Source: Bacteroidales bacterium
GTDB taxonomy: Bacteria > Bacteroidota > Bacteroidia > Bacteroidales > GCA-2748055
Direction: 5' to 3'
Assembly: GCA_023138875.1 (NCBI GenBank)
Contig: JAGLOO010000069.1
Span: 1 to 36,001, forward strand
DNA length: 36,001 bases
Shown here: in pieces, positions 1-34,122 of the stretch
How the letters are laid out: the number at the start of each line of letters is the position of its first letter
Position numbering within the stretch: the first letter of the stretch is position 1
The notes under the pieces: generated by a model
What the model saw: only the letters and a program-made list of their open reading frames with translations
Database searches by the model: none
What the model was told of the DNA's origin: nothing
Position numbers and translations under genes: made by a program

Positions 1-295
1 CGCCCACCAGTGTATCCGTACCGGCGCCTTCACAGTAAGCCGCATCCAATCCGGTTATCGTTACTGCCGGTAATGAGTTCACAATGGTCGATACGGTGGC
101 CGTATCGGTACAACCGTTGCCATCAGTGTAGTAATATTTTGCATCGTAGTTACCAGCCAGGGCGGGATCAAACACAGCACTGTCCCCTCCCAGGATCGTA
201 AGCCCCGGACCTGTCAGGAAGAACCCGTCTGCTGGTCCGCCCACCAGTGTATCCGTACCGGCACCCTCACAGTAAGCCGCATCCAGACCGGTGAT
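1..295 (-). repeat. 237-bp tandem repeat encoding a 79-residue module
   Basis: The sequence beginning at position 1 reappears at position 238, giving a period of 237 bp (79 codons). About the first 50 bases are almost identical and then the copies drift. The second unit is cut by the window edge, so more copies may lie to the left. Confidence 0.8.
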
Positions 296-1159
296 GGTAA
301 CCACCGGCAACGCATTGGCCGTCACGGTGACCGGCTCCATGGCTAGGGAATCACCCCCTATAAAAAAGGTGACATGATAATCCGCCGAAGTTTTGGCGGT
401 ATATGCAAAGGAAGTCGATCCAATAATTGCTATATCATCTTCATACCACTGGTAAAAAGAAGTGGTATCGGTAACCGATAGTTCCACCGAATCCCCCAAA
501 CAGAACGTGGTGGGCCCGGAAGCCGAGATTGCGTAGGAACCAGAGAGATAGAATGTAGCCAGCGCGCCGGCGAGCAGATCACTTTCATCGTACAGCGTAC
601 ATGAATCAACCGGCGAACCACAGGTAAAATCTCCATAGCCTACTCCTGTTTTCAACGTCGGGGAAGCGTCAAAAACATATAGAACACCGTCGTTATCGAA
701 CGATCCCTGATCATTGTCCCCGAAAATGCTGAACTCGCCTGTGACCACCATCTGACCGCTGGACCACACATCAACCGTATCGCCAGAAATAAAATCACCG
801 CGCACGATCAGGATGCCACCTGGATCTATAGTGAGGTCGAGTGTATCGCCAATGGTAAGACTCCCGTAAATGGTAAGTGTATCGTGGACAAACAGATTAC
901 CTCCGCTAAAATCAATGCTGGTCCCACTGACAACATTCCCATAAATATGGACATCCGTTGCAAGGAGCATGGTGCCCGGACTCGTGCCATCACTCCAGAT
1001 GGCATCATCCAGCCACAAACCGTTGGTATTATTCAGGGTAGAGTCCTGGGAGAAAAGATACAGTGGAAGCAACAGCACCATCAAAAGCAGGGCCCCTTTT
1101 CTATTTAAAAGGTGTGCGATTTTCTCAGTAGTTAGTCGAGGCATTAGTTTTAGATTCAT
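1..1159 (-). CDS. Secreted PKD/Ig-like repeat surface protein, 5' part (partial)
   Basis: This is an open reading frame of 386 codons that runs off the left edge of the window, so only the N-terminal part is present. It starts at the ATG complementary to 1157-1159 (MNLKLMPRL). The N-terminus has a basic region followed by a hydrophobic core (ALLLMVLLLPLYLFSQ), which is a typical Sec signal peptide. After it come about 130 residues rich in G, D, T and short beta-strand-like stretches, resembling the N-terminus of Bacteroidota adhesin or filament-like proteins. Next are Ig/PKD-like modules with the phrases YCEGAGTDTLVGG and YYYTDGNGCTDTA. The module with YCEGAGTDTLVGG repeats after 79 residues. 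Such proteins are usually exported and end in a type IX secretion sorting domain; that end lies outside the window, so the secretion route is inference. The function is probably surface attachment or structure, but no enzyme domain is visible. Confidence 0.8.
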   Translation of the reverse strand, partial: MNLKLMPRLTTEKIAHLLNRKGALLLMVLLLPLYLFSQDSTLNNTNGLWLDDAIWSDGTSPGTMLLATDVHIYGNVVSGTSIDFSGGNLFVHDTLTIYGSLTIGDTLDLTIDPGGILIVRGDFISGDTVDVWSSGQMVVTGEFSIFGDNDQGSFDNDGVLYVFDASPTLKTGVGYGDFTCGSPVDSCTLYDESDLLAGALATFYLSGSYAISASGPTTFCLGDSVELSVTDTTSFYQWYEDDIAIIGSTSFAYTAKTSADYHVTFFIGGDSLAMEPVTVTANALPVVTITGLDAAYCEGAGTDTLVGGPADGFFLTGPGLTILGGDSAVFDPALAGNYDAKYYYTDGNGCTDTATVSTIVNSLPAVTITGLDAAYCEGAGTDTLVG

Positions 1160-1417
1160 TGATCAGGTTTTCCCGGAATACCAGGAATTCATTTCCACAT
1201 CACCGTTTATAATACAAAAGTTCATACGCAGAAATGACCACCTGGTTTCAAAAATAACACATTCATATATTTATACTCATAAGGATCGCCACAGGTTATT
1301 AACATTGAGAACGATGCTCCTTCAATTTGATGAATTGATTAAATCAATGGATAAACTGCGAATCTAACTATGTAAATATTTGCATATATCTGTTATTACC
1401 TGACATAAGACCATGAA

Positions 1418-1449
1418 AAAAGCCGTAAAGTTGCATCTCTACGGCTTTT
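1418..1449 (-). terminator. Rho-independent terminator-like hairpin
   Basis: The arms at 1418-1427 (AAAAGCCGTA) and 1440-1449 (TACGGCTTTT) pair perfectly over 10 bp around a 12-nt loop. Read on the minus strand the stem is followed by a run of six T, against four on the plus strand, so minus-strand use is favoured. It sits between two divergent large genes and terminates neither of them, which implies an unannotated transcript. The candidate small gene at 1511-1603 fits. Confidence 0.65.
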
Positions 1450-1510
1450 CAATTACTTCGGAAAACTCCGATTATCATGGATATGATTTTTAGATTAAGT
1501 GAGTCGAGAT

Positions 1511-1603
1511 TTAATTCATAAATCTCATTTCATCTGGTTCAAATTGAATACAACAACAAAGTCCCCAAAGAGTTCTTGCAATCTTTTCGAGAAAAATTTC
1601 CAT
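1511..1603 (-). CDS. Candidate 30-residue small protein with a Cys-Cys-Cys motif
   Basis: A short minus-strand frame runs from the ATG complementary to 1601-1603 to the TAA complementary to 1511-1513. It encodes 30 residues: a basic amphipathic start (MEIFLEKIARTLWG), then LCCCIQ, then an acidic-aromatic tail (FEPDEMRFMN). A terminator-like hairpin with a T-tract on the same strand follows about 60 nt downstream at 1449-1418, so the unit looks like a free-standing mini-gene in an otherwise empty gap. There is no clear ribosome-binding site or promoter. I do not recognise the family. At this length a chance frame is quite possible; the ordered composition and the following terminator are the only support. 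Confidence 0.35.
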   Translation of the reverse strand: MEIFLEKIARTLWGLCCCIQFEPDEMRFMN

Positions 1604-1724
1604 CCCGATAACTCTTTGATTTAGAATTGATATAAATACTGGATCGAACCCTTAAATTAATAACTATCTGCCTTGATTTTCCTATTTTTATTTGGAAGAA
1701 TAGTGAAAATCGTAAATTTTTATC

Positions 1725-2177
1725 ATGGCAGGTTCCATACCTTTGATCATTGAAAAATATGAACCCAGAGACAAAGGCAACCTGATCCAGATCTTACAAG
1801 ACGTTCAGCGAACAGAAGGATATATTCCCAGGGAAGCTGTAGAAAAGATTTCCAGCCACTTATGGATCTCAAAGAGCGAGGTCTTTGGAGTGGCTTCCTT
1901 TTATTCTCAATTCAAATTTAATCCGCCGGGGCGGCATTCCATTAAAATCTGTCTTGGAACTGCCTGTCATGTTCAGGGTGGAGATTTCCTCCTCAACGCA
2001 CTGAAATCTGTGATTGATATTTCACCCAATGAAACCACAGAGGACGGAAGATTTGATCTGGATAGGGTCGCGTGCCTGGGTTGCTGTGCACTGGCCCCTG
2101 TTGTAATGATTGACGAAACCATATACAGTAATATGTCGGTGATTAAACTGAAGGAAACGCTGAATCAATATGAATGA
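1725..2177 (+). CDS. NuoE/HydC-type [2Fe-2S] NADH-dehydrogenase subunit
   Basis: This 150-residue protein is a 24-kDa-type thioredoxin-fold [2Fe-2S] subunit, as in NuoE of complex I and the gamma subunit (HydC) of electron-bifurcating hydrogenases. The N-terminal helical part has the family phrases YIPREAVEKIS and VFGVASFYSQF. The cluster ligands are visible as C-x4-C (Cys76, Cys81, in CLGTACHVQG) and C-x3-C (Cys117, Cys121, in CLGCC). Length matches the family. The stop overlaps the start of the next gene by 8 bp (2170-2177), so translation is probably coupled. It should pass electrons to or from the FMN subunit encoded next. It is the first gene of the five-gene redox operon, and no membrane subunits follow, so the complex is soluble rather than a respiratory complex I. 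Confidence 0.93.
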   Translation: MAGSIPLIIEKYEPRDKGNLIQILQDVQRTEGYIPREAVEKISSHLWISKSEVFGVASFYSQFKFNPPGRHSIKICLGTACHVQGGDFLLNALKSVIDISPNETTEDGRFDLDRVACLGCCALAPVVMIDETIYSNMSVIKLKETLNQYE

Positions 2178-4035
2178 TTTCCTTGCACTCCGGAAAAAAG
2201 CATTGGATGAGTGGCAGGAACTTCAACATGCTCCAGAACCAGTGATCTATATTGGTATGGGTAGTTGCGGTATTGCATCAGGTGCCGGAAAAGTATGGGA
2301 CCGTGCCAGTGAAATTCTGCATCAGGAAAAAATCCCGGCCAAACTCCTGAAAGTCGGTTGCATCGGACCCTGTTACCTGGAACCCCTGGTGGATATCCAG
2401 AAACCAGGATTCCCGCGGGTTAGTTTCAATAACGTTGATGAGCAGCGATTGTCTAAACTGATCCCGGAATATATACTGAATGGTACCTCAAAGATGAAGC
2501 CCCTGGGGTATTTAGGCGATCCTGTTGAAGTACCGGATGGAATAAAATCGCTGTGGGAACTGCCCATGCTTAAAGAACAAAAACGGATCGTTTTAAGGAA
2601 TTGCGGTATCATTGATCCGGAAAGCATTACACATTATATGGCGAGAGATGGATTTTCCGGCCTGTTAAAAGCTTTTAATCTGGGTGCTGAAGGAGTTATT
2701 GAGGAGGTAAAGGTGGCCGGTCTGCGCGGAAGAGGTGGTGCGGGATTTCCCACTCATAAAAAATGGCAGTTATGCCATGATGCCCCGGGTAGTAAAAAAT
2801 ACCTGATCTGCAATGCCGATGAGGGTGATCCGGGTGCATTCATGAACCGCTCCCTGATGGAGGGTGATCCATTCGCGCTTCTTGAAGGCATGATCATTGC
2901 AGCTTATGCCATTCAGGCACACCAGGGTTATATATATATCAGGGCTGAGTATCCACTGGCAATTGAGCGGCTCAAAATAGCCATTGCCCAGCTACATAGG
3001 CACCACCTGCTTGGAAAGGATATACTCAAAACCGGTTTCTCATTTAATATTCAGATCAAGGAAGGTGCAGGTGCATTTGTATGTGGTGAAGAAACTGCAT
3101 TGATCGCATCCCTTGAAGGCCGGAGAGGCATGCCCCGTAGCAGGCCACCCTACCCTTCCAGCTCCGGGCTGAATGGTTGCCCCACCAATATTAACAATGT
3201 TGAAACCCTTGCCACGATCCCGGCCATTTTTCGTGAAGGCGGGCAAGCTTTTGCAGGCATTGGCTCCAAATCAAGCAAAGGGACCAAGACTTTCGCACTG
3301 GTAGGTAAAATACGCAGGACCGGATTGATAGAAGTCCCCATGGGAACAACCCTGAGGAAGATCATCTATGATATTGGAGGAGGAAGCCGTAAAGCGTTTA
3401 AGGCGGTACAAACGGGTGGCCCCTCAGGAGGATGTCTATCAAAAGAATTCCTGGATCTTCCGGTGGATTATGAATCCCTCTCGGGTGCAGGATCGATCAT
3501 GGGATCCGGAGGATTGATCGTCATGGATGAAGATACCTGCATGGTAGATGTGGCTAAGTATTTTCTCAAATTTACCAGCCAGGAGAGTTGTGGTAAATGT
3601 ACGCCCTGCCGGATCGGAACAAGACAAATGGTTGAAGTGCTGGAAAAAATCACCCGGGGCGATGCTGAGCCAGGTGACATACAAATGCTGGAAGAGATTG
3701 CCGGTACTGTCAGGGACGGTTCATTATGTGGATTGGGACAAACAGCTCCAAACCCTGTGCTCACAACACTCAAGTATTTTAAAGAGGAATATGAAGCGCA
3801 TATTGAAAACCAGCGGTGCCCTGCAGCGGTCTGCCGTGACCTTGTTGAGTACAGTGTAATCAAGGAAAAATGTACCGGCTGTCAGCGTTGTGTGGATGTG
3901 TGTCCGACAGGCGCCATCACAGGGCCCAGAAGCGAACCTCACTACCTGGACCTTGAGAAATGCATCAAGTGCCGGGCCTGTTACGAGATATGCCGCTTTG
4001 ACGCCATTGCAGGGGATGCAATCATCATTAAATAA
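2170..4035 (+). CDS. NuoF/HydB-type FMN and NAD(H)-binding subunit with C-terminal ferredoxin domain
   Basis: The 621-residue protein has the HydB domain order rather than that of plain NuoF. Residues 1-110 are a thioredoxin-like [2Fe-2S] domain (GSCGIASGAG with Cys33; GCIGPC with Cys64 and Cys68). Residues about 130-430 are the FMN/NADH domain (GRGGAGFPTHKKW, CNADEGDPGAF, CGEETALIASLEG). Residues 470-525 hold the NuoF [4Fe-4S] site (Cys474, 477, 480 and 520). Cys550 and Cys555 form the CPAAVC motif seen before the HydB tail. The end is a 2x[4Fe-4S] ferredoxin (CTGCQRCVDVCP and CIKCRACYEIC). In HydABC-like and related complexes this subunit carries the FMN proposed as the bifurcation site. 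Here it should be the NAD(H) entry point. It overlaps the previous gene by 8 bp and abuts the next. Confidence 0.92.
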   Translation: MNDFLALRKKALDEWQELQHAPEPVIYIGMGSCGIASGAGKVWDRASEILHQEKIPAKLLKVGCIGPCYLEPLVDIQKPGFPRVSFNNVDEQRLSKLIPEYILNGTSKMKPLGYLGDPVEVPDGIKSLWELPMLKEQKRIVLRNCGIIDPESITHYMARDGFSGLLKAFNLGAEGVIEEVKVAGLRGRGGAGFPTHKKWQLCHDAPGSKKYLICNADEGDPGAFMNRSLMEGDPFALLEGMIIAAYAIQAHQGYIYIRAEYPLAIERLKIAIAQLHRHHLLGKDILKTGFSFNIQIKEGAGAFVCGEETALIASLEGRRGMPRSRPPYPSSSGLNGCPTNINNVETLATIPAIFREGGQAFAGIGSKSSKGTKTFALVGKIRRTGLIEVPMGTTLRKIIYDIGGGSRKAFKAVQTGGPSGGCLSKEFLDLPVDYESLSGAGSIMGSGGLIVMDEDTCMVDVAKYFLKFTSQESCGKCTPCRIGTRQMVEVLEKITRGDAEPGDIQMLEEIAGTVRDGSLCGLGQTAPNPVLTTLKYFKEEYEAHIENQRCPAAVCRDLVEYSVIKEKCTGCQRCVDVCPTGAITGPRSEPHYLDLEKCIKCRACYEICRFDAIAGDAIIIK

Positions 4036-6636
4036 ATGCCGGACTTCAAAAACAGGATGACGGGAAACCAGAAAATAAATAACACAGCCACCATCGACGG
4101 ACAAACTGTGAAGGTTCGGGAAGGCATTACCATTCTTGAAGCGGCCAGGAAGGCTGATATTTATATCCCCACACTCTGTCACCTTGAAAACCTGGATTCA
4201 TATGGAGGGTGCCGTTTATGTGTTGTGACTGTGAAGCACATGAAAGGATTCCCTACGGCCTGTACTACTCCTCTTGAACCGGGTATGGAAGTCATGACCC
4301 GGACGCCTGAACTACAAAAGCTCAGAAAGGAAATCCTGGAATTTACCCTTTCCGAGCACCCCTTTACCTGCCTGGTATGCAAAGATAAGATGGAGTGTGC
4401 AGATTTTATGCATTCCACAAGGAAAGTCAGTACCATCACAGGCTGCAATTTTTGCACCAGCAATGGAGATTGTGAATTGCAGGATCTGGTTGAAACCCTT
4501 GAGTTGACAGATATTAAATTCCCGATTTCCTACAGGGGTATCCCACCGGTAAAAGATAATCCCTTTTATGATCTGGATTACAACCTGTGTATTCTCTGCG
4601 GACGATGTGTCAGGATTTGCAGCGAAGAGAGAAACAGCCACGTGCTGGCCTTTGTGGAAAGAGGAAATACAACCATTGTGGGGACAGCATTCAATGAATC
4701 CCAGAAAGATGCAGGTTGTGAGTTCTGCGGTGCCTGTGTGGATGTTTGCCCCACCGGTTCCATCTCCGAAAAAATGGGGAAATGGAGAGGAATCCCTGAT
4801 AGATCGGTGGAAACCTCGTGTGTGATCTGCCCGGTAGCATGCAAAATGAATATCAATACCAGTGGCGGTAAAATTGTCAATGTGGGCCCGGCCCCAGGCA
4901 AGCGGACCAATCCTCCACAGTTGTGCCTGCGCGGAAAGTTCCTGCCGGTTGAACTCAATCATCACCCGTCCAGGATCACCACACCCCTTATTAAAAGAGA
5001 TAACAAATGGGTTGAGATATCCTGGAAGGAAGCGATAGCATACACAGCCGGTAATCTTGAGAAATACAGGGGAACCCAGTTTGGAATCATCGCTTCCGCG
5101 CAGGATACAATTGAAGACAACTATACACTTCAGAAATTTGCACGGAAAGTCATGCGGTCCAATAATGTGGATCTTCATTCCTCTTACGCCCATAAAGAAT
5201 TATTAAAGCATATTCATCAGTTTTATTCACTCCATCCTCCTGCAGGGTTCCTGGAGATAGAAAAAGCTGATACGCTGTTAATCATAGGCTCTGATGCATC
5301 CACGTCACATCCACTGCTTGAGAACAGGATCAGGAAAGCTTATAACGGTGGTCGGCGTGTTATTTATGCCGGCGCTTTCCCAACCCGTACATCCACTTTC
5401 ACAACAAACAGGGTATTATACACGCCCGGGGAAGAGACCAGTTTTCTCTTTGTTTTATTGTCAGCGCTGGTTAAGAAATACGGCTCCGGGATCCCCGGAA
5501 CTGTTTCCAGTCAATTCAAAAAACCAGCTTTACAAAAAGCACAGGAGTTTGCGGGAATATCAGGTTCTGAACTGGAAAAGGCCCTGTCCATTCTTGTGAA
5601 ATCAAGAAACCTGATGATCATTGCCGGGGATGATCTGCTCCGGCATTCCTCCCCCCTGGATATTTTTCATTGCCTGGTAAACATACATTTCGTGAAAAGC
5701 AGGAACCACAGTTGCAATATCCTGTTCCCGGGCTATGAAGGAAGTTTGTATGGTGGCGTTTTATCAGGAGTTCATCCCGATTATTTACCGGGATTTTATT
5801 CCATTACAGATGACAGGAATATCCGGAAATGGAATAAGAACTGGCAAACCCGGTTAAGCACAACCAGGGGATTGTCCTGCAATGAGATGGTAAATCAAAT
5901 TCAGGAAGACGGAATAACCTCCCTTCTGGTGATGGGAGATATCCCGCCGCACCCGGATCTGGCCAATTTGAAATTCCTGGTTCAATGCAATATGTTCCGG
6001 ACAGACCTTTCAGAGTTTGCTGATATCCTGTTACCGGTAACGGATTTCCTCGAAAATGAAGGCCATGTTCTGTCGCTGGATGGTAAATTGAAGAAGGTTA
6101 ACAGGGCCATATCCGGACAAGGAAAATCAAAGAGCATACCCCGGGTAATCACCAGCCTCGCAGCAGTCATGCAGGAATCAGGATTTAGCAGCAAACCGGC
6201 GGATATTTTCAGGGAGATCCGGTCCTTCATAGAGATACCATACTCAAACGGGAAAAATGTAAAATCCGGTTTTCAACCCATCAGGCTGAAACCGCAGAAA
6301 AAGAATGCCGCATATCCCATTCAGGTCATGCTCAGGCACAATCATTTCAAATACAGGGGCAACCGGTTAACCGACCTGGTACCCGGGTTACACTCCATTA
6401 CCGATGAAGGTGTGATAGGCCTTTCACCATCCCTGATGCGTCAGTTAAAGGTAAAGGAAGGCGACCAGGTCAGAATCTGTACCGAAACCGGAGAGTCGCT
6501 CTCGATCTCCCGGCCCATGCCCGAACTGGCGGATCATTCTGCCTGTTTGTTCTCCAACGGTACGGATTCTATCAAATTGTGTGGTGGAATTTTTCCGGGA
6601 ACCAGCATGATCAGCGCAAGGATCGAAAAGGCATAA
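4036..6636 (+). CDS. NuoG-like iron-sulfur subunit with degenerate molybdopterin-oxidoreductase domain
   Basis: This 866-residue protein starts directly after the preceding stop. Residues 15-90 are a plant-type [2Fe-2S] domain (Cys48, 59, 62 and 76). Next is a His-Cys region with extra cysteines: HPFTCLVC (His108, Cys112, Cys115), Cys121, then GCNFC and Cys146. A 2x[4Fe-4S] ferredoxin follows (Cys185-195 and Cys228-238). From residue 260 comes a molybdopterin-oxidoreductase fold with its own [4Fe-4S] ligands (Cys262, 265, 269 and 297) and a C-terminal beta-barrel domain from about 755. Where formate dehydrogenases have catalytic Cys or Sec followed by His, this protein reads SYAHKEL, so Ala385 replaces the catalytic residue while His386 is kept. 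The codon is GCC, not TGA. It is therefore more likely an electron-wiring subunit like complex I NuoG than a formate dehydrogenase. Cofactor content is inference. Confidence 0.85.
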   Translation: MPDFKNRMTGNQKINNTATIDGQTVKVREGITILEAARKADIYIPTLCHLENLDSYGGCRLCVVTVKHMKGFPTACTTPLEPGMEVMTRTPELQKLRKEILEFTLSEHPFTCLVCKDKMECADFMHSTRKVSTITGCNFCTSNGDCELQDLVETLELTDIKFPISYRGIPPVKDNPFYDLDYNLCILCGRCVRICSEERNSHVLAFVERGNTTIVGTAFNESQKDAGCEFCGACVDVCPTGSISEKMGKWRGIPDRSVETSCVICPVACKMNINTSGGKIVNVGPAPGKRTNPPQLCLRGKFLPVELNHHPSRITTPLIKRDNKWVEISWKEAIAYTAGNLEKYRGTQFGIIASAQDTIEDNYTLQKFARKVMRSNNVDLHSSYAHKELLKHIHQFYSLHPPAGFLEIEKADTLLIIGSDASTSHPLLENRIRKAYNGGRRVIYAGAFPTRTSTFTTNRVLYTPGEETSFLFVLLSALVKKYGSGIPGTVSSQFKKPALQKAQEFAGISGSELEKALSILVKSRNLMIIAGDDLLRHSSPLDIFHCLVNIHFVKSRNHSCNILFPGYEGSLYGGVLSGVHPDYLPGFYSITDDRNIRKWNKNWQTRLSTTRGLSCNEMVNQIQEDGITSLLVMGDIPPHPDLANLKFLVQCNMFRTDLSEFADILLPVTDFLENEGHVLSLDGKLKKVNRAISGQGKSKSIPRVITSLAAVMQESGFSSKPADIFREIRSFIEIPYSNGKNVKSGFQPIRLKPQKKNAAYPIQVMLRHNHFKYRGNRLTDLVPGLHSITDEGVIGLSPSLMRQLKVKEGDQVRICTETGESLSISRPMPELADHSACLFSNGTDSIKLCGGIFPGTSMISARIEKA

Positions 6637-6640
6637 AACG

Positions 6641-7477
6641 ATGAACAGCATGCAAATAATCGATAAATCTGAAATAGCACCCAATGTTTATGCCTGTAAA
6701 GTCAGAGCTGAAGCAATTGCAAAGAAAGTGCAGCCCGGACAGTTCATTATGGTTATTCCGGATCAGTACAGTGAAAGAACTCCAATTACAGTCGCCGACT
6801 GGAATACCAGTGAGGGAACAATTACTTTCATATTTCTTGATATAGGATCGAGCACAAACAGGCTGGCTGAACTGAAACCCGGAGAGGAGATATTTTCACT
6901 CACCGGGCCACTGGGAAACTCCTTCGATATTAAGAAATACGGTAGTGTTGGCCTGGTTGGCGGATGCTATGGGATTGGAGGCATTTACCCTGCTGCCAGG
7001 GCACTTAGGGAAAAGGGAAACAGGGTGGTGTGCTATTCTGAAGCCAGGAGCAAGTTCCTTTTATACTGGAATAAAAAACTGGAAGAAGTATCGGATGAGG
7101 TCAGGTATGCAACGGCAGACGGGTCTCTTGGTTTCAAGGGACATGCATACGATCTGCTGGAAACTGATCTGAAATCCGGGGTAAAATATGACCTGGTCAT
7201 CACTGTCGGGTGCACCTTCCTGATGTATCGCATTTCTAAGGTCACAGAACCCTATCAGATGAAAACAATCGTAAGCATGAATCCAATTATGATTGACGGA
7301 ACCGGTATGTGCGGAGCCTGCAGGGTTGAAGTGGATGGAGCAACCCGGTTTGCCTGTGTGGATGGGCCTCATTTTGATGGGCATCAGATGAACTGGGATC
7401 TGGTCCTTGCAAGAAGAAAAGCATACCTGGATGAAGAAATCGTTTCCGGGGAAAGACACGATTATGGCAAAAGTTAG
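6641..7477 (+). CDS. NfnA/SudB-like FAD and nucleotide-binding subunit (copy 1, divergent)
   Basis: The 278-residue protein belongs to the ferredoxin-NADP+ reductase-like family that includes NfnA, SudB and the PyrK electron-transfer subunit. An FAD-domain motif RTPIT lies at 46-50. The nucleotide-binding loop reads GGCYGIGGIYP (107-117), unlike the usual GGGxGxxPLLP. The C-terminal [2Fe-2S] site is DGTGMCGAC...C, with Asp219, Cys224, Cys227 and Cys239, which matches the Asp plus three Cys ligation described for NfnA. It starts 4 nt after the NuoG-like gene and overlaps the next by 14 bp, so it is part of the operon. NfnA normally pairs with NfnB to couple NADPH, NADH and ferredoxin. The altered loop and its place behind NuoEFG-like genes suggest adaptation as a module of a larger complex; that is inference. 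Confidence 0.85.
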   Translation: MNSMQIIDKSEIAPNVYACKVRAEAIAKKVQPGQFIMVIPDQYSERTPITVADWNTSEGTITFIFLDIGSSTNRLAELKPGEEIFSLTGPLGNSFDIKKYGSVGLVGGCYGIGGIYPAARALREKGNRVVCYSEARSKFLLYWNKKLEEVSDEVRYATADGSLGFKGHAYDLLETDLKSGVKYDLVITVGCTFLMYRISKVTEPYQMKTIVSMNPIMIDGTGMCGACRVEVDGATRFACVDGPHFDGHQMNWDLVLARRKAYLDEEIVSGERHDYGKS

Positions 7478-8858
7478 CCCAACCAAAACCCCCATGCGGG
7501 AACAACCGCCGCAGGAAAGGGTCAGGAATTACGATGAGGTGCCCCTTGGGTATTCTCCACAGGAGGCTATCTTCGAAGCTGAACGTTGCCTGATGTGTAA
7601 AAACCCCAGATGCATTGAAGGTTGTCCGGTTGAAATTGACATCCCGGGATTTATTCAATTCATAACAGAAGAAAAGTTCAGGGATGGGGTGCGCCGGCTT
7701 AAAGAAAAAAACATACTCCCGGCCATTTGTGGCCGTGTTTGTCCCCAGGAAGAACAATGCGAACAGAAATGCATCCTGGGTGTTAAAAATGAGCCGGTTG
7801 CCATAGGAAGACTGGAGAGGTTCCTGGCTGACTGGGAAGCCGGACAGGGTGAACCGGAGTTGCCACCAAAACCAAAACCAACCGGTAAAAAAATTGTCAT
7901 TGTGGGCGCCGGTCCTGCCGGAATTACCGCTGCTGCCGACCTGGTCAGATTAGGTCATAAAGTAGATATGTTTGAAGCCCTCCATGAGCCGGGAGGTGTG
8001 CTGGTATACGGCATCCCGGAGTTCCGGCTGCCAAAAGCCATCGTCTTCAGGGAAATTAATTATCTGAAGAAACTGGGCGTAAAGCTTTACACCGATCATG
8101 TGATTGGACAAATCAGAAGCATTGATGAGCTCCTGGATGAGTATGATGCGGTTTTCCTGGGAACCGGAGCCGGGCTTCCCTGGTTTTTGAATGTTCCCGG
8201 AGAGAATCTGAACGGTATCTATTCCGCCAATGAGTATCTTACCCGGGCCAACCTTATGAAAGCCTACCTCTTCCCGAAATACAAAACACCCATTGTGAAG
8301 GGGAAGTATGTGGCCACGGTGGGCGGGGGCAATGTAGCGATGGATTGTGCCCGGACCGCATTGCGGCTTGGTGCTGAAAAATCCATTATCATCTACCGCA
8401 GATCAAGGGATGAAATGCCTGCCCGCGACGAAGAGATCCATCATGCAGAGGAAGAAGGAGTGATTTTCAAACTGCTTTCCAATCCTGCAGCATTTCATGG
8501 GGGAAACAACAGCTGGGTAAAGGAAGTGGAGTGTGTCAGCATGAAGCTCGGTGAACCTGATGATTCAGGAAGAAGACGACCCGTTCCCATACCGGATGCC
8601 AACTTCAGAATGCCCATCGATGTGGCGGTTATTGCCATTGGAAATAGTCCGAATCCATTGATACCTTCCACAACACCTGATATTGAAACCGGTAGATGGG
8701 GAAATATTGTAACAAACCTGGAAACCGGGAAGACTTCTAAACCGGGAGTATTTGCCGGAGGTGATGTGGCTACCGGGGCCGCCACTGTGATACTGGCCAT
8801 GGGGGCTGGCAAAATAGCAGCCCGGGGAATCCATGAATATGTGATGAGCAAAAAATAG
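7464..8858 (+). CDS. NfnB/GltD-like NADP(H)-binding flavoprotein subunit (copy 1)
   Basis: This 464-residue protein resembles NfnB, SudA and the small subunit of glutamate synthase. I chose the ATG at 7464 (MAKVSPTKTP) over an upstream ATG at 7407, because the family begins about here and it leaves only a 14-bp overlap with nfnA. The N-terminal iron-sulfur domain shows CLMCKNPRCIEGCP and CGRVCPQEEQCEQKC. A first Rossmann motif (VGAGPAGITAAADL) binds FAD, EALHEPGGVLVYGIPEFRLP is a family signature, and a second Rossmann motif (VGGGNVAMDCART) binds NADP(H), followed by YRRSRDEMPAR. The end has the FAD motif GVFAGGD. In NfnAB this subunit holds the bifurcating FAD and the NADPH site. Its gene converges with the zinc-ribbon gene, leaving 7 nt between stops and no terminator. 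Confidence 0.9.
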   Translation: MAKVSPTKTPMREQPPQERVRNYDEVPLGYSPQEAIFEAERCLMCKNPRCIEGCPVEIDIPGFIQFITEEKFRDGVRRLKEKNILPAICGRVCPQEEQCEQKCILGVKNEPVAIGRLERFLADWEAGQGEPELPPKPKPTGKKIVIVGAGPAGITAAADLVRLGHKVDMFEALHEPGGVLVYGIPEFRLPKAIVFREINYLKKLGVKLYTDHVIGQIRSIDELLDEYDAVFLGTGAGLPWFLNVPGENLNGIYSANEYLTRANLMKAYLFPKYKTPIVKGKYVATVGGGNVAMDCARTALRLGAEKSIIIYRRSRDEMPARDEEIHHAEEEGVIFKLLSNPAAFHGGNNSWVKEVECVSMKLGEPDDSGRRRPVPIPDANFRMPIDVAVIAIGNSPNPLIPSTTPDIETGRWGNIVTNLETGKTSKPGVFAGGDVATGAATVILAMGAGKIAARGIHEYVMSKK

Positions 8859-8865
8859 GTTTTCC

Positions 8866-9747
8866 CTACCATTCGAGGCTTTCTTCCAGCCGGATGTCAT
8901 CAAGGTCGTCCTTGCTCAGGCCATGCCACCTGCATCCTTTTTTCGAACAGATATAGAAATCAACCAGTCTGCTGGTCGCCCCAACAACAATCCTGGCTAT
9001 CTCGCTTCCGCATTCCCGGCACTTCTCCTCTTTGATCATCAAAGATTGGTCGCAATGAAAACACTTGATATCACCGATATATTCATCCTCGGGCAGCCTG
9101 ATGGTTGACTTGGATGTAAATATATTCAGGTAAGGACTAAGCATTAAATATCCGGATTTCTTTCCCCTGTCCACCTTGAATTTAATGGACGACTTCTCGA
9201 TGAGAGATTTTTTACAGTGAGGGCAGTATGACTGTAAAAAAGTCCCCGTCCTCATAATCTTAATCTTCTCTTCTTCCTCGGTCCCGGGGCCCTTCTTTTC
9301 CCGGGGGAGCGACATATCTTCAATAAATGGACGTCCCTGATAACCGGCATCTATATACAACTGCTTCAGTGCAAATGAAAAATCTACGAACTTGACAAAA
9401 TGGTTTTTGCAACCAATGCGCGAACATATGCTCACATCTCCTCCCAGTTCAAGGTCCAGCGGGATCATAGGGGCATCACATACATCGCAATCTGCTTTGC
9501 TTTTGATTTCCGAATTGCAATGAGGACAGGAAAGTTTAATGGTTGTATCTTTCGGGGTTTCCAGGGTACATACATAATTGTAACTTTCCCAGACAGAACT
9601 TAAATTGATTTCCCCTTTATCCTGGTCATTTGCGATATTCAGCCTGATGCTGGGACAGTTGTCCACCAGCCGGTTGTCATCCATTAAGGATTGTCCGCAA
9701 ACAGGACATTTTACCCTCAATGAAATCAGATTCAGCATATCGTTCAT
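8866..9747 (-). CDS. Internally duplicated zinc-ribbon protein of unknown function
   Basis: The 293-residue protein has no signal peptide or membrane segment and is rich in CxxC pairs, so it is probably a cytoplasmic zinc-binding protein. Two halves repeat the same cysteine layout. In the first half the pairs are CPVC (14-17), CPHC (74-77), CDVC (87-90) and Cys108/Cys113. In the second they are CPHC (175-178), CFHC (229-232), CREC (243-246) and Cys267/Cys272. The last element of each half is alike (ICSRIGCKNH versus ICSKKGCRWH). An acidic linker with a run of Glu (157-160) joins them. It lies 46 nt downstream of nfnB copy 2 on the same strand and is probably co-transcribed with that pair. I do not recognise the family. 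A role in handling or regulating the redox enzymes is only suggested by position. Confidence 0.8.
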   Translation of the reverse strand: MNDMLNLISLRVKCPVCGQSLMDDNRLVDNCPSIRLNIANDQDKGEINLSSVWESYNYVCTLETPKDTTIKLSCPHCNSEIKSKADCDVCDAPMIPLDLELGGDVSICSRIGCKNHFVKFVDFSFALKQLYIDAGYQGRPFIEDMSLPREKKGPGTEEEEKIKIMRTGTFLQSYCPHCKKSLIEKSSIKFKVDRGKKSGYLMLSPYLNIFTSKSTIRLPEDEYIGDIKCFHCDQSLMIKEEKCRECGSEIARIVVGATSRLVDFYICSKKGCRWHGLSKDDLDDIRLEESLEW

Positions 9748-9793
9748 CTTTGGGAATGGTTTGGTTTACATATAAATATATGAAACTTCCGGG

Positions 9794-11335
9794 TTATTTG
9801 GCAAATTCGAGTACTTCTCCGATGGTTTTAAACTCTTTGATGAGTGAAATGAGTTCTCTTACTTTTCCCTTAATATGACGGTCCATGGCTGCAGCAGCAT
9901 TTCTGCCATCTCCCATGGCCAGGATTACTGTTGCTCCTCCTCTCACGATATCACCTCCGGCAAATATATCAGGTATCGAAGTTTGCATGGTCTCCTTATT
10001 CACATTGATCGTTCCCCAGGAAGAGACATCCAGTTCTTTCATACTCTGGGGGATCAGCGGGTTTGGAGAAACACCTACGCTGACCACGACCGTGTCCACA
10101 TCAATAAAGAATTCCGAACCTTCAATTGGTATCGGTCTCCGGCGACCCGAAGCGTCAGGTTCGCCCAGTTCCATTTTCTGGACTTTCATTTTGTTTACCC
10201 TTCCATGCTCATCCGCAAAATATTCAACCGGGTTATGCAGGTTAAGAAATTCAATGCCCTCTTCCTTGGCATGCTTAATCTCTTCAACCCTTGCAGGCAT
10301 CTCTTCAATGGACCGTCGGTAGATGATCATGGATCTCCCGGCTCCCAGCCTTTTTGATATTCTGACAGCATCCATTGCGGTATTCCCGCCCCCTATTACG
10401 GCCACGCTTTTTCCGCTGATCACGGGTGTATCATATTCAGGATCAGCAGCATTCATTAAATTCACCCGGGTCAGGTACTCATTGGAAGAATAGATGCCAA
10501 TATAGTTTTCACCAGGAATGTGCATAAAGTTTGGCAATCCGGCCCCGCTTCCAACCAGGAATGCAGAAAATCCTTCTTTTTTGAGATCTTCAATAGTGGC
10601 TGTCTTACCTACAATGAAATTGTTGACGAACTTCACTCCCATTTTTTTCAGGATATCAATCTCCGCATCCACGATCTTGTTGGGAAGCCGGAATTCAGGT
10701 ATTCCATATTTCAGGACACCTCCAATCTCGTGCAATGCCTCGAACACCGTAACATCATACCCCATTTTTGCCATATCCCCTGCGAAGGCCAGGCCGGCCG
10801 GACCGGAACCTACAGATGCAACTTTGATCCCATTAACTGCAGGTATGTCGGGCACGGATATCTTTCCACTGTTTTGTTCATAATCGGCCGCAAATCTTTC
10901 CAGGAACCCAATGGCAACAGGAGGTTTGTTCAATTTCTGGGGATAAAAACAGACTTGTTCGCACTGTACCTCCTGCGGACAGACACGTCCGCATACAGCA
11001 GGCAAAGAATTGGTTTCCTTCAGAACCCTGGCGGCATCAAGAAATTCACCTGCTTCGATCTTCTTGATGAATTTCGGTATATTGATCCCTACCGGACATC
11101 CTGTAATGCATGTGGGATTCGGACAATCGATGCACCGTTGGGCTTCATGCCGGGCCTGCTCTTCTGACAATCCCAGGTTCACCTCGGCGAAATTTTTATT
11201 CCGTATATCGGCCGCCTGTTCAGGCATCGCCAGCCGCTCCAGTTGCGTCCGCTCCTTGTTCTTCAGTTTGCTGCGCAACTCAACTCTCCAATCCTGCTCT
11301 CTCTCCTTTTTTAAATACTCCAGTAAACCCTTCAT
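9794..11335 (-). CDS. nfnB: NfnB, NADPH-dependent ferredoxin:NAD+ oxidoreductase subunit (copy 2)
   Basis: The 513-residue protein is a second NfnB/GltD-family flavoprotein. It has about 45 extra N-terminal residues rich in K, R and E (MKGLLEYLKKEREQDWR). The iron-sulfur domain carries CIDCPNPTCITGCP and CGRVCPQEVQCEQVC. FAD is bound at VGSGPAGLAFAGDM, the signature EALHEIGGVLKYGIPEFRLP follows, and NADP(H) is bound at IGGGNTAMDAVRI with YRRSIEEMPAR. The C-terminal FAD motif is DIFAGGDIVRGGATVILAMGDG, followed by a short helical extension. It starts 3 nt after the stop of nfnA copy 2, so the two form an operon and presumably a heterodimer. The expected reaction couples NADPH oxidation to reduction of NAD+ and ferredoxin, or the reverse. 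The protein could equally be annotated as a glutamate synthase small subunit, but no large subunit is present. Confidence 0.9.
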   Translation of the reverse strand: MKGLLEYLKKEREQDWRVELRSKLKNKERTQLERLAMPEQAADIRNKNFAEVNLGLSEEQARHEAQRCIDCPNPTCITGCPVGINIPKFIKKIEAGEFLDAARVLKETNSLPAVCGRVCPQEVQCEQVCFYPQKLNKPPVAIGFLERFAADYEQNSGKISVPDIPAVNGIKVASVGSGPAGLAFAGDMAKMGYDVTVFEALHEIGGVLKYGIPEFRLPNKIVDAEIDILKKMGVKFVNNFIVGKTATIEDLKKEGFSAFLVGSGAGLPNFMHIPGENYIGIYSSNEYLTRVNLMNAADPEYDTPVISGKSVAVIGGGNTAMDAVRISKRLGAGRSMIIYRRSIEEMPARVEEIKHAKEEGIEFLNLHNPVEYFADEHGRVNKMKVQKMELGEPDASGRRRPIPIEGSEFFIDVDTVVVSVGVSPNPLIPQSMKELDVSSWGTINVNKETMQTSIPDIFAGGDIVRGGATVILAMGDGRNAAAAMDRHIKGKVRELISLIKEFKTIGEVLEFAK

Positions 11336-11338
11336 GTG

Positions 11339-12172
11339 TTATGCTTTGCGGTATTTATTCAGAAAATTTTCATAAGCCTCTTCTTCTTCCGGTTTATAGG
11401 AATTTAATCTTAACATCATTTCATTAAAATCAACCTCGTGGGCATCAAATTCAGGTCCGTCCACGCAAACGAACTTTGTCTTCCCGCCTACGGTAACCCT
11501 GCAGGCTCCGCACATACCCGTCCCGTCAACCATCAGTGTATTTAAACTGGCCACCGTGGGGATATTGTATTTCTTCGTAAGAATGGTGACAAATTTCATC
11601 ATGACAGCCGGACCAACTGTAACAGCCAGATCAACTTTCTCACGCTTAATTACCTCTTCCATTCCATCTGTTACCAGTCCCTTCTTTCCATACGAGCCAT
11701 CGTCAGTCATGATAACCACCTCGTCGGAATGCATGCGCATCTGCTGTTCAAGTATGATCAGCTCTTTCGTTCTTGCTGCCAGAACAGTGATGACCTTATT
11801 TCCTGCATTTTTCAGGGCCTCCACAATGGGAAGCAGGGGTGCCACGCCAACTCCTCCACCTGAGGCCAGTACGGTTCCCACTTTCTCTATATGTGTGTGC
11901 TGGCCCAGAGGACCTACCACATCGGTTATAGTTTCACCCACCTCCAGGTTACACAGTTTGATGGAAGTAACACCCACTTTCTGAATGATGATGGTAATGG
12001 TCCCTTTCTCAACATCCGCTCCAGCAATGGTAAGGGGGATCCGCTCCCCTTTCTGTCCAATCCGTACAATCACAAAATGACCTGCCTTTCGACTTTTCGC
12101 AATTTGGGGTGCTTCCACAACCAATTTCACTACGGAGTCGGAGAAGTATTCTTTTTCTATAATCTTATTCAT
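11339..12172 (-). CDS. nfnA: NfnA, ferredoxin-NADP+ reductase-like subunit (copy 2)
   Basis: The 277-residue protein is the canonical-looking NfnA/SudB partner. I place the start at the ATG complementary to 12170-12172 (MNKIIEKEYF), because the longer frame from 12286 would add 38 hydrophobic residues not found in the family, and the chosen length matches copy 1 (278 residues). The FAD motif is RIPLT, the nucleotide-binding loop is the usual GGGVGVAPLLP, and the [2Fe-2S] site is DGTGMCGAC with a later Cys in KFVCVDGP, giving Asp plus three Cys. It leads an operon with nfnB and the zinc-ribbon gene. The divergent neighbour is a dihydroorotate-dehydrogenase-like protein; because NfnA is related to PyrK, a functional link with that flavoprotein is possible but unproven. 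Confidence 0.9.
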   Translation of the reverse strand: MNKIIEKEYFSDSVVKLVVEAPQIAKSRKAGHFVIVRIGQKGERIPLTIAGADVEKGTITIIIQKVGVTSIKLCNLEVGETITDVVGPLGQHTHIEKVGTVLASGGGVGVAPLLPIVEALKNAGNKVITVLAARTKELIILEQQMRMHSDEVVIMTDDGSYGKKGLVTDGMEEVIKREKVDLAVTVGPAVMMKFVTILTKKYNIPTVASLNTLMVDGTGMCGACRVTVGGKTKFVCVDGPEFDAHEVDFNEMMLRLNSYKPEEEEAYENFLNKYRKA

Positions 12173-12335
12173 GCGTGTCAGGTATGTTTCAAAGGCATCA
12201 GAAAAAACTTGCAATATTATATGAAAAATATTTGAAAATATATGCTGGAATATAAGATAAACGTTATTAAGAATAATTATAAACAATTGTTTGTGTGTGC
12301 ATTGTATTTAAGTGCTTTCGGGGATGATATAATGA

Positions 12336-12343
12336 TATTTTTG
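12336..12343 (+). promoter_or_regulatory. Possible -7 element of the DHOD-like gene
   Basis: TATTTTTG matches the Bacteroidota -7 consensus TAnnTTTG exactly and lies 36 nt before the ATG at 12380. No good -33 TTG is found at the right distance. An isolated 8-mer of this kind is expected by chance many times in a window this size, so support rests on its position. Confidence 0.3.
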
Positions 12344-12379
12344 TATTTTTATTATCCTTTCAGCTAAACTCTGGTAAAT

Positions 12380-13372
12380 ATGAAGGATCTGACAACAAAA
12401 TATATTGGATTAACGCTGGCGAATCCTGTTATTGCAGCCAGTAGCGGACTAACAGCTTCTGTGGAAAGCATTCAAACCCTTGAAAAAAACGGAGCCGCAG
12501 CCGTAGTGCTTAAATCGATATTCGAGGAGGAGATCCTGCTTGAGGTAAACCAGCAATTGGAAGAGGCGAAAAAAAATCCCATCATCTACTCCGGGCTTTC
12601 GGAAACCCTCGATTACATCGACCTGCACATCAGAGAAGACAGTCTCAATGATTACCTGAATTTGATCAGGGATGCAAAGAATGCGGTATCGATACCGGTC
12701 ATTGCCAGCATCAACTGTGTCTCCTTTGAAGACTGGACCTATTTCACCAAAAAAATCGAAGAAGCAGATGCAGATGCATTGGAGCTTAATCTTTTCATGA
12801 ATCCGGCCGATTTTCAAAACAAGGAATTTGAAAAAACCTACTTCAGGATTATTGAAAAAGTGCTGGCTACGGTAGAGATCCCGGTGGCCATCAAGATCAG
12901 CAAATATTTCACCCGCATGGGTTTGTCGGTAAAGGCCCTGTCCGAATCCGGGGTATCGGGCATTGTGATGTTCAACCGTTTTTACACGCCCGATATTGAT
13001 CTTGATACGATTTCTCTTTCAAATGGAAAGCTATTTACGACCGCGGAAGACCTTCCCGAAACCCTCAGGTGGATTGCGATCATGTCAAACAAGGTTAACT
13101 GCGACCTGGCGGCTTCCACCGGCATTCATTCCGGGGACGATGTGATCAAAATGCTGCTTGCAGGGGCATCGGCAACCCAGGTGGCATCCACACTCTACAA
13201 GAACGGTCCCGGCCAGATAACCCGGATCCTTAACAGGGTTGAGAAATGGATGGATGAAAAGGGATTTGATTCCATTGATCAGTTCAGGGGAAAGGTGAGC
13301 GGGGAGTATTCGGACAATCCAGCATCTTTTGAACGGATGCAATTTATGAAGCATTTCAGTGAGATCAGGTAA
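12380..13372 (+). CDS. Dihydroorotate-dehydrogenase-like FMN flavoprotein
   Basis: The 330-residue protein has the TIM-barrel fold signature of the dihydroorotate dehydrogenase family: LANPVIAASSGLT at the start, a central ADALELNLFMNP strand, PVAIKISKYF for FMN contact, and a C-terminal phosphate-binding region around STGIHSGDDVIKMLLAGA. It corresponds to the 'dihydroorotate dehydrogenase-like' group of about 330 residues rather than to a clear biosynthetic PyrD. The expected NNPN-type orotate-site pattern is replaced by ELNLFMNPADF, so the substrate is uncertain. It could be an FMN oxidoreductase using a PyrK/NfnA-like electron partner, and nfnA copy 2 is its divergent neighbour. It is followed by sucA after 66 nt on the same strand. 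Confidence 0.75.
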   Translation: MKDLTTKYIGLTLANPVIAASSGLTASVESIQTLEKNGAAAVVLKSIFEEEILLEVNQQLEEAKKNPIIYSGLSETLDYIDLHIREDSLNDYLNLIRDAKNAVSIPVIASINCVSFEDWTYFTKKIEEADADALELNLFMNPADFQNKEFEKTYFRIIEKVLATVEIPVAIKISKYFTRMGLSVKALSESGVSGIVMFNRFYTPDIDLDTISLSNGKLFTTAEDLPETLRWIAIMSNKVNCDLAASTGIHSGDDVIKMLLAGASATQVASTLYKNGPGQITRILNRVEKWMDEKGFDSIDQFRGKVSGEYSDNPASFERMQFMKHFSEIR

Positions 13373-13438
13373 ATAGCGGGATTGCGTACAACAAAACGGA
13401 TGCCTGATTGTTAGTTCTAAAATCCGGACTGGTTTCAT

Positions 13439-16264: not shown

Positions 16265-16265
16265 T

Positions 16266-33806: not shown

Positions 33807-33896
33807 GGAGGAATGGCAGAGTGGTCGAATGCGGCGGTCTTGAAAACCGTTGTCCGCGCGAGTGGACCGGGGGTTCGAATCCCTCTTCCTCCGCCA
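33807..33896 (+). tRNA. tRNA-Ser (anticodon UGA)
   Basis: The acceptor arm GGAGGAA pairs with TTCCTCC, followed by discriminator G and an encoded CCA. The anticodon loop CTTGAAA (anticodon TGA at 33841-33843) is closed by GCGGT/ACCGT. The long variable arm GTCC...GGAC is typical of class II serine tRNAs, and the T-loop GGTTCGAATCC is intact. It reads UCA and related serine codons. Its 3' end is followed by a decayed integrase gene, a classic integration site. Confidence 0.97.
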
Positions 33897-33917
33897 GTAG
33901 TTCAAGCAAAAAAACGC

Positions 33918-33953
33918 AAAGTCCTGTAAATCAGCCCTGATTACAGGACTTTT
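33918..33953 (+). terminator. Terminator downstream of tRNA-Ser
   Basis: AAAGTCCTGTAAATCAG and CTGATTACAGGACTTT form a 16-bp stem with one bulged A and a short CC loop, followed by a T-rich tract. It lies 21 nt after the tRNA and ends its transcript. Confidence 0.85.
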
Positions 33954-34003
33954 TCTTTTCCACCAGGCAATAAAAGGCAAAATAAGGCATATCTGGTGTG
34001 GCC

Positions 34004-34045
34004 AATTCGGTGTACCAAACCGAATTTTTCTTGGTACACCGAATT
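34004..34045. repeat. Perfect 15-bp inverted repeat upstream of the integrase remnant
   Basis: AATTCGGTGTACCAA (34004-34018) is exactly complementary to TTGGTACACCGAATT (34031-34045) across a 12-bp spacer, itself containing ACCGAAT. The first nine bases (AATTCGGTG) recur at 34129-34137, at the start of the integrase remnant. It could be a recombinase or regulator binding site. Confidence 0.75.
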
Positions 34046-34122
34046 AGACGTAATGCGCTGTTTTGCTTCGTTTTGCAGTTGTGTAGAATGGCAATTTGTT
34101 GTACTATTAAACCCAAAACAAA

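Follow-up and report, generated by a model that had tools for sequence, protein, structure and literature searches.

Nfn (NfnAB) and the Sporomusa-type transhydrogenase Stn (StnABC) have been described as different solutions to one reaction that bifurcate electrons at different cofactors, and the two are almost mutually exclusive among the acetogens surveyed (PMC7483475; here and below, statements about cited papers refer to those parts of their texts that were available). Stn has no NfnA homologue (PMC10482914), and in Nfn-Bfu an NfnB-like domain lies within BfuA (PMC9304861). Here we describe five adjacent genes, in the order NuoE, NuoF, NuoG', NfnA and NfnB, on the plus strand of a Bacteroidales genome (assembly GCA_023138875.1, 4.79 Mb, completeness 99.6%). 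They lie at positions 1725-8858 of a window of 36,001 nucleotides, i.e. the whole stretch analysed, which is the entire contig JAGLOO010000069.1 (C66 in our numbering). We consider it reasonably probable that their products make up a single soluble enzyme, a reversible NADP(H)-linked electron-bifurcating oxidoreductase that is an unfused relative of Stn together with NfnA.

The operon has in common with StnABC (PMC7483475, PMC10482914) a HydBC-type core, a non-catalytic FdhF-like NuoG and an NfnB/GltD-like NADPH module at the same point. It differs from StnABC in that NfnB is a separate gene, NuoG' has a short Cys-rich loop instead of an inserted domain, NfnA is present, and NfnB carries Glu118 where StnC has Lys170; the last two differences led us to reject the reading that the locus is just another Stn. 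With NfnAB (PMC6405883) it shares the ERxPxT and DGTGMCGxCR motifs of NfnA and, in NfnB, the GRVCPQExQC motif, the N5 Arg and the Glu, whereas it is set apart by the genetic linkage to NuoEFG' and by Cys109 and Cys191 in place of the Gly and Pro of the NfnA NAD site. The domains of the Bfu family, Types 1-4 (PMC9304861), are found as well: those of BfuB (51K, SLBB, NADH_4Fe-4S, ferredoxin) in NuoF and the thioredoxin-like [2Fe-2S] domain of BfuC in NuoE, both with the cluster ligands, and the [2Fe-2S] and 4Fe-4S domains of BfuA in NuoG', with all Fe-S motifs. By our reading the BfuA equivalent is nearest to Type 3, but a separate NfnA and NfnB occur in none of the types described in the available text.

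NAD-dependent formate dehydrogenases (6tg9, 9wxb) are like NuoG' in sequence and fold, but in the operon the catalytic Cys is lost and NfnAB is added. Pyrococcus NfnII/Xfn (5vj7) has a diverged NfnA nucleotide domain, as the operon does, yet shows Tyr and Pro at the places of Cys109 and Cys191, and no link to NuoEFG is mentioned in the available part of PMC6405883. The same review, as far as available, does not describe NuoEFG', and the legend of its Figure 2 has a bifurcating [FeFe]-hydrogenase among the nfn neighbours. The H-cluster domain of the hydrogenase A subunit is not in NuoG'. Our literature search, with subscription papers and preprints outside its scope, found no description of the composite five-gene operon. 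What is new, as we read it, is that NfnA is joined to an unfused Stn-like enzyme, a combination absent from the available descriptions of Bfu, Stn and Nfn (PMC9304861, PMC10482914, PMC7483475, PMC6405883).

The open reading frames (ORFs) occupy 1725-2177, 2170-4035, 4036-6636, 6641-7477 and 7407-8858, all on the plus strand, the last with a TTG start; an in-frame ATG at 7464, taken from the translation, leaves a 14-nt overlap between NfnA and NfnB. NuoE and NuoF overlap by 8 nt, the gap between NuoF and NuoG' is 0 nt, and 4 nt separate NuoG' from NfnA. The gene order, overlaps and gaps agree with those given in an earlier note on this DNA. That note had also seen no membrane subunits, and we found no membrane Nuo genes, i.e. 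nothing like the membrane part of Complex I, among the window ORFs scanned with Pfam, some small ORFs being unscanned and the rest of the genome not searched.

The five-gene order is conserved. A scan of 84,980 species genomes for NuoG' gave 534 relatives, of which the best 80 (loci L070-L149) were used; they come nearly all from metagenome assemblies, and many are close kin. Counting loci with at least 2.5 kb on the relevant side (26 of the 80 had less downstream and were left out), NfnA and NfnB are found on the same strand near NuoG' in 48 of 54 loci, and NuoE and NuoF lie upstream in 58 of 64 by the rule of the script, which scores L121 as a miss where both genes are seen. The spacing is at most 100 nt between NuoG' and NfnA in 43 of 52 loci and between NfnA and NfnB in 42 of 50; in L076 NfnA is 5 kb distant. 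The nearest relatives in the scan are Bacteroidota metagenome genomes, and the order recurs in many bacteria of anaerobic type, across about ten phyla. The best 80 loci belong to Bacteroidota, Chloroflexota, Thermodesulfobacteriota, Nitrospirota, Nitrospinota and Bacillota (Ammonifex), and also to Zixibacteria, Latescibacterota, Aminicenantes, Calditrichota, Coatesbacteria and Thermoplasmatota, with the full gene set in view only in part.

Within the window's own order, close relatives of NuoG' occur in 12 of 295 genomes (best matches with 46% identity or more across the part that matched), and a more distant version in G069 and G145 brings the number to 14. Those genomes with long enough contigs show the same five genes in the same order, occasionally with a small ORF interposed. 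The operon type of NfnA (at least 46% identity, a cut chosen after the list had been viewed, the next best being 43%) is found in exactly the 14 genomes that have NuoG', on a different contig from it in G047. The scan loci and the order genomes are not independent sets, as some of L070-L149 lie on the same contigs as loci of the order genomes (for example L072/L046, L077/L047, L084/L051). A search of 395 genomes of the phylum at E <= 1e-150, a cut that would miss weaker or broken copies, gave nine matches; only the window's own is full-length, the remaining eight beginning at positions 130-140 within frames of 908-954 amino acids. The operon is real, and its recurrence in the window's order and in about ten phyla is beyond chance. 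The synteny that the earlier note had proposed as a check is therefore present.

The variation of the five proteins was compared by correlating their distance matrices over the 36 loci that have all five genes. The correlations include relatedness, and common descent alone yields some correlation. They were 0.88 for NuoE-NuoF, 0.62 for NuoF-NuoG, 0.68 for NuoF-NfnA, 0.70 for NuoF-NfnB, 0.89 for NuoG-NfnA, 0.79 for NuoG-NfnB and 0.88 for NfnA-NfnB. In other words, NuoG' varies with NfnA and NfnB no less closely than with NuoF. L093 (Desulfocapsaceae) groups within Bacteroidota for both NfnA and NuoG', which suggests transfer as a unit.

A possible docking or relay site for NfnB is indicated by a Cys-rich segment of NuoG' (His108-Cys146, positions 4357-4473). 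Ordinary NuoG and formate dehydrogenase have H-x3-C-x2-C-x5-C here, whereas in NuoG' the Cys triad is doubled to a repeated CxxCx5C (H108, C112, C115, C121, C137, C140, C146). At least six Cys are present in the loop in 66 of 69 intact operon NuoG proteins (62 by pattern and four by reading). The doubling is absent from seven other rows, none of which has NfnAB alongside: in the formate dehydrogenase-like order rows L059, L060, L067 and L068 the loop has three Cys, L061 has none, and L200 and L205 do not show it either. The StnC-like protein of genome G250 is homologous to NuoG' (BLASTP) up to residue 107 and to NfnB over residues 101-517, and its printed translation has a CxxCxC motif after the NfnB-like part. 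Motifs of the CxxCxC type in StnC have been proposed to be a trace of the integration of GltD into a NuoG-like protein (Kremp et al., PMC7483475). Since the homology switches there, the NfnB-like domain of StnC sits at the place of the NuoG' loop, and by analogy this is the strongest hint that NfnB would dock at the loop in the five-gene enzyme. Residues 123-143 have a predicted local distance difference test score (pLDDT) below 50 in the single-chain model, which would suit an interface but could also reflect the thinness of the alignment (25 rows). The doubled motif did not hold up as a strict marker of linkage to NfnAB: among Chloroflexota, L144, L122 and L139 have NfnAB without it and L114 shows it with no NfnAB adjacent, as do L112, L143 and L149. 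The likeness to the Sporomusa-type transhydrogenase drawn in the earlier note is borne out, and the insertion point shared by StnC and NuoG' makes it more specific.

The core subunits are of known types. NuoE (150 amino acids, 1725-2177) is a HydC/StnA-like [2Fe-2S] subunit (2Fe-2S_thioredx, PF01257, E 4.5e-48) whose Cys76, Cys81, Cys117 and Cys121 are present in 61 of 62 rows, the remaining row being gapped. NuoF (621 amino acids, 2170-4035) is a HydB/StnB-like subunit with FMN, NAD(H) and ferredoxin sites, in which Complex1_51K (PF01512), NADH_4Fe-4S (PF10589) and a C-terminal Fer4 were recognised, and SLBB scored 26.6, slightly below its cut-off of 27. The C-terminal ferredoxin and the CPAAVC motif pointed out earlier are both there: the 2x[4Fe-4S] domain lies at 3853-4011, with its eight Cys in 62 to 66 of 66 rows, and CPAAVC at residues 550-555 (3817-3834), with both Cys in all 66 operon NuoF rows. 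The best solved sequence matches of NuoF are 9bov_B, 9n5u_B and 8oh5_B (StnB), and in 9bov, 9n5u and 8oh5 the large chain combines NuoG-like and NfnB-like parts. In Chloroflexota loci L118, L119, L123 and L127 NuoF is 1009-1029 amino acids long; a fusion to NfnB/GltD was identified in L118, the other three being placed here by length only.

NuoG' (866 amino acids, 4036-6636) carries Fer2_4, NADH-G_4Fe-4S_3 and Molybdopterin (PF00384, E 2.9e-29) domains, and its best solved relatives in both sequence and fold are the alpha subunits of NAD-dependent formate dehydrogenases. In the segment SSYAHKE (5179-5199), Ala385 (5188-5190) aligns with a Cys of 6tg9_A and of the relatives that bear RLCH, which we take to be the catalytic Cys of formate dehydrogenase. 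The position is variable in Bacteroidota, Zixibacteria, Latescibacterota, Aminicenantes and Desulfobacteraceae; the Cys is kept in ten rows of the operon set (L099-L103, L109, L118, L127, L136 and L144, from Chloroflexota, Nitrospirota and Ammonifex) and in five formate dehydrogenase-like order rows (L059-L061, L067, L068). The NuoG tree has two changes at this site and is compatible with gain as well as loss. An active formate dehydrogenase was rejected on account of the replacement by Ala385. The cluster ligands are conserved: the N-terminal Cys/His ligands and the FdhF-like [4Fe-4S] site are kept in 66 to 69 of 69 rows. NuoG' thus looks like an Fe-S wire derived from formate dehydrogenase, with catalysis lost. 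The earlier note had called it a non-catalytic scaffold; the first part agrees with the change to Ala385, and because the Fe-S ligands are kept NuoG' is likely a wire as well as a scaffold.

The length of NuoG' varies. It is shorter than 830 amino acids in 15 of 23 members of the Bacteroidota-type clade, and the shorter rows of the alignment (A1) are without most of the window's C-terminal stretch. In one Bacteroides metagenome-assembled genome (L054/L083) NuoG' is read as two ORFs, the N-terminal one sharing 78% identity with the window's protein and the C-terminal one 45%; either the genome itself has a frame break here or the assembly is in error. We also note that L099, L100, L102, L103 and L127, and partly L101, L109 and L144, have operons resembling formate dehydrogenase plus HydBC plus NfnAB in which the Cys is kept. 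L101 is cut off before NfnA, and L109 and L144 have no NuoE/NuoF upstream. By their gene content, operons of the L099/L100/L102/L103/L127 type are possible NADP-linked bifurcating formate dehydrogenases.

A hydrogenase complex was likewise rejected. No H-cluster domain is found in NuoG', the best stretches in the hydrogenase models being residues 17-268, i.e. the N-terminal Fe-S part, so that the earlier statement that the operon encodes no hydrogenase catalytic subunit stands. The same note had held that participation of a hydrogenase encoded elsewhere in the genome would speak against the complex. Three [FeFe]-hydrogenase-type operons do exist (contigs C21, C32 and C45; two of them reach the A6 model cut-off), but each has its own NuoF and NuoE.

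NfnA (278 amino acids, 6641-7477) is the subunit that departs most from expectation. It matches the NCBIfam family of sulfide/dihydroorotate dehydrogenase-like FAD/NAD-binding proteins (NF004862, E 4.5e-98), its closest solved relative in sequence and fold is 5jca_S, and the FAD and [2Fe-2S] motifs are kept. The NAD site is altered, with Cys109 (6965-6967; GGC for GGG) and Cys191 (7211-7213; GC for GP). The same 54 of 60 operon rows have both Cys, no row has one alone, and all 22 standalone NfnA proteins have Gly and Pro. The 60 rows are 57 from L070-L149 plus the window, L057 and L058, after removal of incomplete genes and of loci whose NuoG is in more than two pieces; the 22 are the window's own standalone NfnA, seven from near the L070-L149 loci and 14 from L166-L179. 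Outside these, the standalone NfnA of L164 and L165 has GGG at the first place. In a tree of 88 rows the pair arises by one change (support 98), also when the stretches around the Cys are blanked, and no reversal is seen among 56 carrying rows, two detached Latescibacterota copies included. A repeated, coupled change of the two residues was therefore rejected.

In the NfnA model (mean pLDDT 90.4) Cys109 lies between strand 102-108 and helix 111-124, and Cys191 between strand 185-189 and helix 192-205. The strands that precede them presumably neighbour each other, as in the ferredoxin reductase fold, and in that case the two Cys would be close together on the NAD side. With the NAD pocket rebuilt around them, the partner of the operon NfnA probably differs from plain NAD+. 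A comparable case is Pyrococcus NfnII, whose NADH domain has diverged, which shows no NAD+-dependent activity and for which another acceptor is considered possible (PMC6405883). Calling the subunit NfnA-like, as was done earlier, holds for the family and for the FAD and [2Fe-2S] motifs; it is probably not an ordinary NfnA with an NAD+ site, and the Cys pair had been missed.

NfnB (464 amino acids, 7464-8858) has FAD, NADP(H) and 2x[4Fe-4S] sites and matches the NADPH-dependent glutamate synthase-like family of NCBIfam (TIGR01316, E 1.3e-173, scanned from 7407). Its closest solved sequence is Thermotoga NfnB (4ylf_B, E 5.1e-175), chains that fuse NfnB-like and NuoG-like parts scoring lower (E 1.6e-95 to 1.3e-86). 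Two residues are invariant in 53 of 53 operon rows. Arg188 (8025-8027) is the counterpart of Arg201 at the flavin N5 in Pyrococcus NfnB, and Glu118 (7815-7817) is the NfnB-type residue at the place of StnC Lys170, an equivalence that derives from our alignments. Lys170 adjoins the proximal cluster of StnC and is strictly conserved there (PMC10482914), and the short StnC-like protein of the same genome also has Lys where the operon NfnB has Glu118. The resemblance to bifurcating NfnB given by Arg188 and Glu118 is a hint only, since Sporomusa StnC has the Arg too and there it makes no bond to the flavin N5. In the Chloroflexota loci L099 (10717-12924), L101, L122 and L144 there is an extra NfnB-like gene of 633-735 amino acids, two of them cut by the contig end; that of L099 has [2Fe-2S], NuoG-type 4Fe-4S and GltD domains.

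In the mechanism that we propose, NuoE and NuoF would form a HydBC-type core handling NAD(H) and ferredoxin, NuoG' would be a formate dehydrogenase alpha subunit with catalysis lost and the Fe-S chain kept, and NfnB would dock on its Cys-rich loop, where StnC holds the equivalent domain covalently. NADPH would reduce the NfnB flavin. One path, modelled on the route described for Stn (PMC10482914), would lead from NADPH through the FAD and the two [4Fe-4S] clusters of NfnB and the clusters of NuoG' to the FMN of NuoF and on to NAD+ and ferredoxin. The other would lead from the NfnB flavin through the [2Fe-2S] cluster and FAD of NfnA to the NfnA partner, with NfnA accepting or donating electrons one at a time on the far side of the NfnB FAD. 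Bifurcation at both flavin sites would give the enzyme two bifurcation points, whereas an NfnB flavin that is simply a two-electron gate would make NfnA a second exit. A more specific version has the two bifurcation sites in series (the Nfn FAD and the FMN/Fe-S site of HydBC), NfnA off NAD+, and Cys109/Cys191 as a redox pair beside the flavin that serves a disulfide, a thiol or another compound as acceptor. This version is tentative and we hold it to be unlikely; if true, NADPH could drive ferredoxin and NAD(H) reactions with a fourth partner. Of the earlier proposal of one soluble complex linking NAD(H), NADP(H) and ferredoxin, the analysis shows the operon, its synteny and co-occurrence, the conserved ligands, the lost formate dehydrogenase Cys, the NfnA Cys pair and the insertion point shared with StnC; the single complex, the docking site, the electron path and its direction, the bifurcation at both sites and the changed NfnA partner are what we infer.

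Several observations weigh against the single five-subunit enzyme, the complex and activity of which are predicted from the genes. The scan patterns lie in NuoG', one of them within the Cys-rich loop, and of the 534 relatives just the best 80 were used, which biases the synteny and loop counts. No adjacent NfnAB was found in 6 of the 54 loci (L112, L114, L118, L136, L143, L149), i.e. NuoEFG' without NfnAB, whose regular occurrence the earlier note would have taken as contrary evidence, is a minority case. Five of the six records, some of them incomplete, encode an NfnA homologue elsewhere. In L112 and L149 (Latescibacterota) it is a detached Cys-pair NfnA with an NfnB 65-67% identical to the operon's, whereas the homologues of L114, L136 and L143 are ordinary NfnA. 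A search of the L118 record for NfnA found none; its NuoF (4886-7966) carries the fused NfnB/GltD-like domain at the C terminus. The loop has only three Cys in L118, L136 and L144, and among eight further pieces of split NuoG (L083 included) it is present in five and missing in L107, L122 and L139; L144, L122 and L139 nevertheless have NfnAB. The ordinary Gly and Pro are retained in 6 of the 60 operon NfnA proteins (L119, L120, L122, L127, L139, L144), all from Chloroflexota, and the 54 Cys-pair rows are not independent, as they go back to one change on the tree.

These points have to be set against what the alternatives would explain. NuoEFG' and NfnAB might be two enzymes of one operon, made together for the management of NAD(P)H and ferredoxin without binding each other. 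NfnAB is active alone in other organisms (PMC6405883) and could act by itself here, and the separated loci of the two Latescibacterota show that adjacency is not required. We nevertheless consider two separate enzymes unlikely. NuoEFG' alone would have no evident third substrate, as the formate dehydrogenase Cys is lost and no hydrogenase domain is seen; StnC joins NuoG-like and NfnB-like parts in one chain; the operon NfnA differs from the standalone type by its Cys pair; and plain Nfn is already supplied in the window by an ordinary NfnAB at 9794-12286 on the minus strand.

The other alternatives concern single subunits. That the complex is as proposed, with the NfnA cysteines neutral and NfnA using NAD+, so that there are two NAD sites, would agree with the preserved FAD and [2Fe-2S] motifs, with the retention of much of the nucleotide domain and with the ordinary motif of the six Chloroflexota operons. 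Against it stand Gly and Pro in every one of the standalone proteins and the fact that the Cys-pair rows are one side of a single branch, without reversal, also with the stretches blanked; we regard it as quite improbable. Finally, NuoG' could retain a Mo or W active site for a substrate other than formate, with NfnAB as side modules. The Molybdopterin domain is still recognised, the fold is nearest to formate dehydrogenases, and the Cys is still there in relatives from Chloroflexota, Nitrospirota and Bacillota (Ammonifex); but the Cys/Sec position is Ala in the window and varies freely in relatives, most of the Bacteroidota-type proteins are below 830 amino acids and the shorter rows are without most of the C-terminal stretch, and in the two-ORF NuoG' of L054 it is the C-terminal piece that is far less similar than the N-terminal one. 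A retained active site is accordingly very improbable in our view.

The genome encodes other systems of this kind, and the five-gene enzyme is therefore probably not its sole NADP(H)-linked system. Besides the ordinary NfnAB and the [FeFe] operons there are an Rnf (RnfC 570 bits) and, on contig C19 (L065), a NuoEF fusion next to a short StnC-like protein (4927-6480 of L065, G000:C19; 517 amino acids) that lacks the flavin Arg and has little of the NADP-domain homology. Nine loci of relatives have an alanine dehydrogenase/PNT-type gene near the operon and seven have one of PntB type (Pfam was run on three representatives); the presence of Pnt (proton-translocating transhydrogenase) genes fits an NADP(H) role. 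Loci of Zixibacteria and their kin have upstream a protein with a weak HPr-kinase-N match, an ATPase-type protein and one like the Fe-hydrogenase C terminus.

Immediately after the operon in the window, on the minus strand, lies ZR293 (8866-9747), a 293-residue protein with zinc-ribbon Pfam matches that is a recurrent neighbour and for which we propose no subunit role; its gene accompanies the operon in various Bacteroidota relatives, in some on both flanks. In L199 (G250:C179, 72-6350), L084 and L076 a divergently transcribed set lies near the operon, made up of a zinc-ribbon gene, an ordinary-type NfnA, a 601-residue NfnB with about 130 extra N-terminal residues, NuoE and NuoF, and in L199 a StnC-like gene comes next, giving an NfnAB-StnABC array. 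L204 (G155:C76, 10228-12168) encodes a 646-residue protein with a NuoF 4Fe-4S domain and an NfnB/GltD-like part (PF10589, PF14691, PF07992) in what by eye is a complex I operon (171-14831), possibly a complex I fed by NADPH. Further along the window, 9794-17465 holds the ordinary NfnAB on the minus strand, a divergent dihydroorotate dehydrogenase-family gene and then 2-oxoglutarate dehydrogenase E1 and E2-type genes, and 33807-35186 a tRNA-Ser (TGA) with a phage-type integrase gene after it, which probably marks a mobile element at the tRNA; a search for plasmid features at the window end matched only tRNA-like and integrase sequences.

The operon unites parts of Nfn and Stn in about ten phyla, mostly in metagenome-assembled genomes, and may plausibly be an intermediate that lies between enzymes linked to formate dehydrogenase and the fused StnC. 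The Cys pair of NfnA is its most surprising part and could prove to be more than a variant. The partner of this NfnA thereby becomes a testable question, akin to that of Pyrococcus NfnII.

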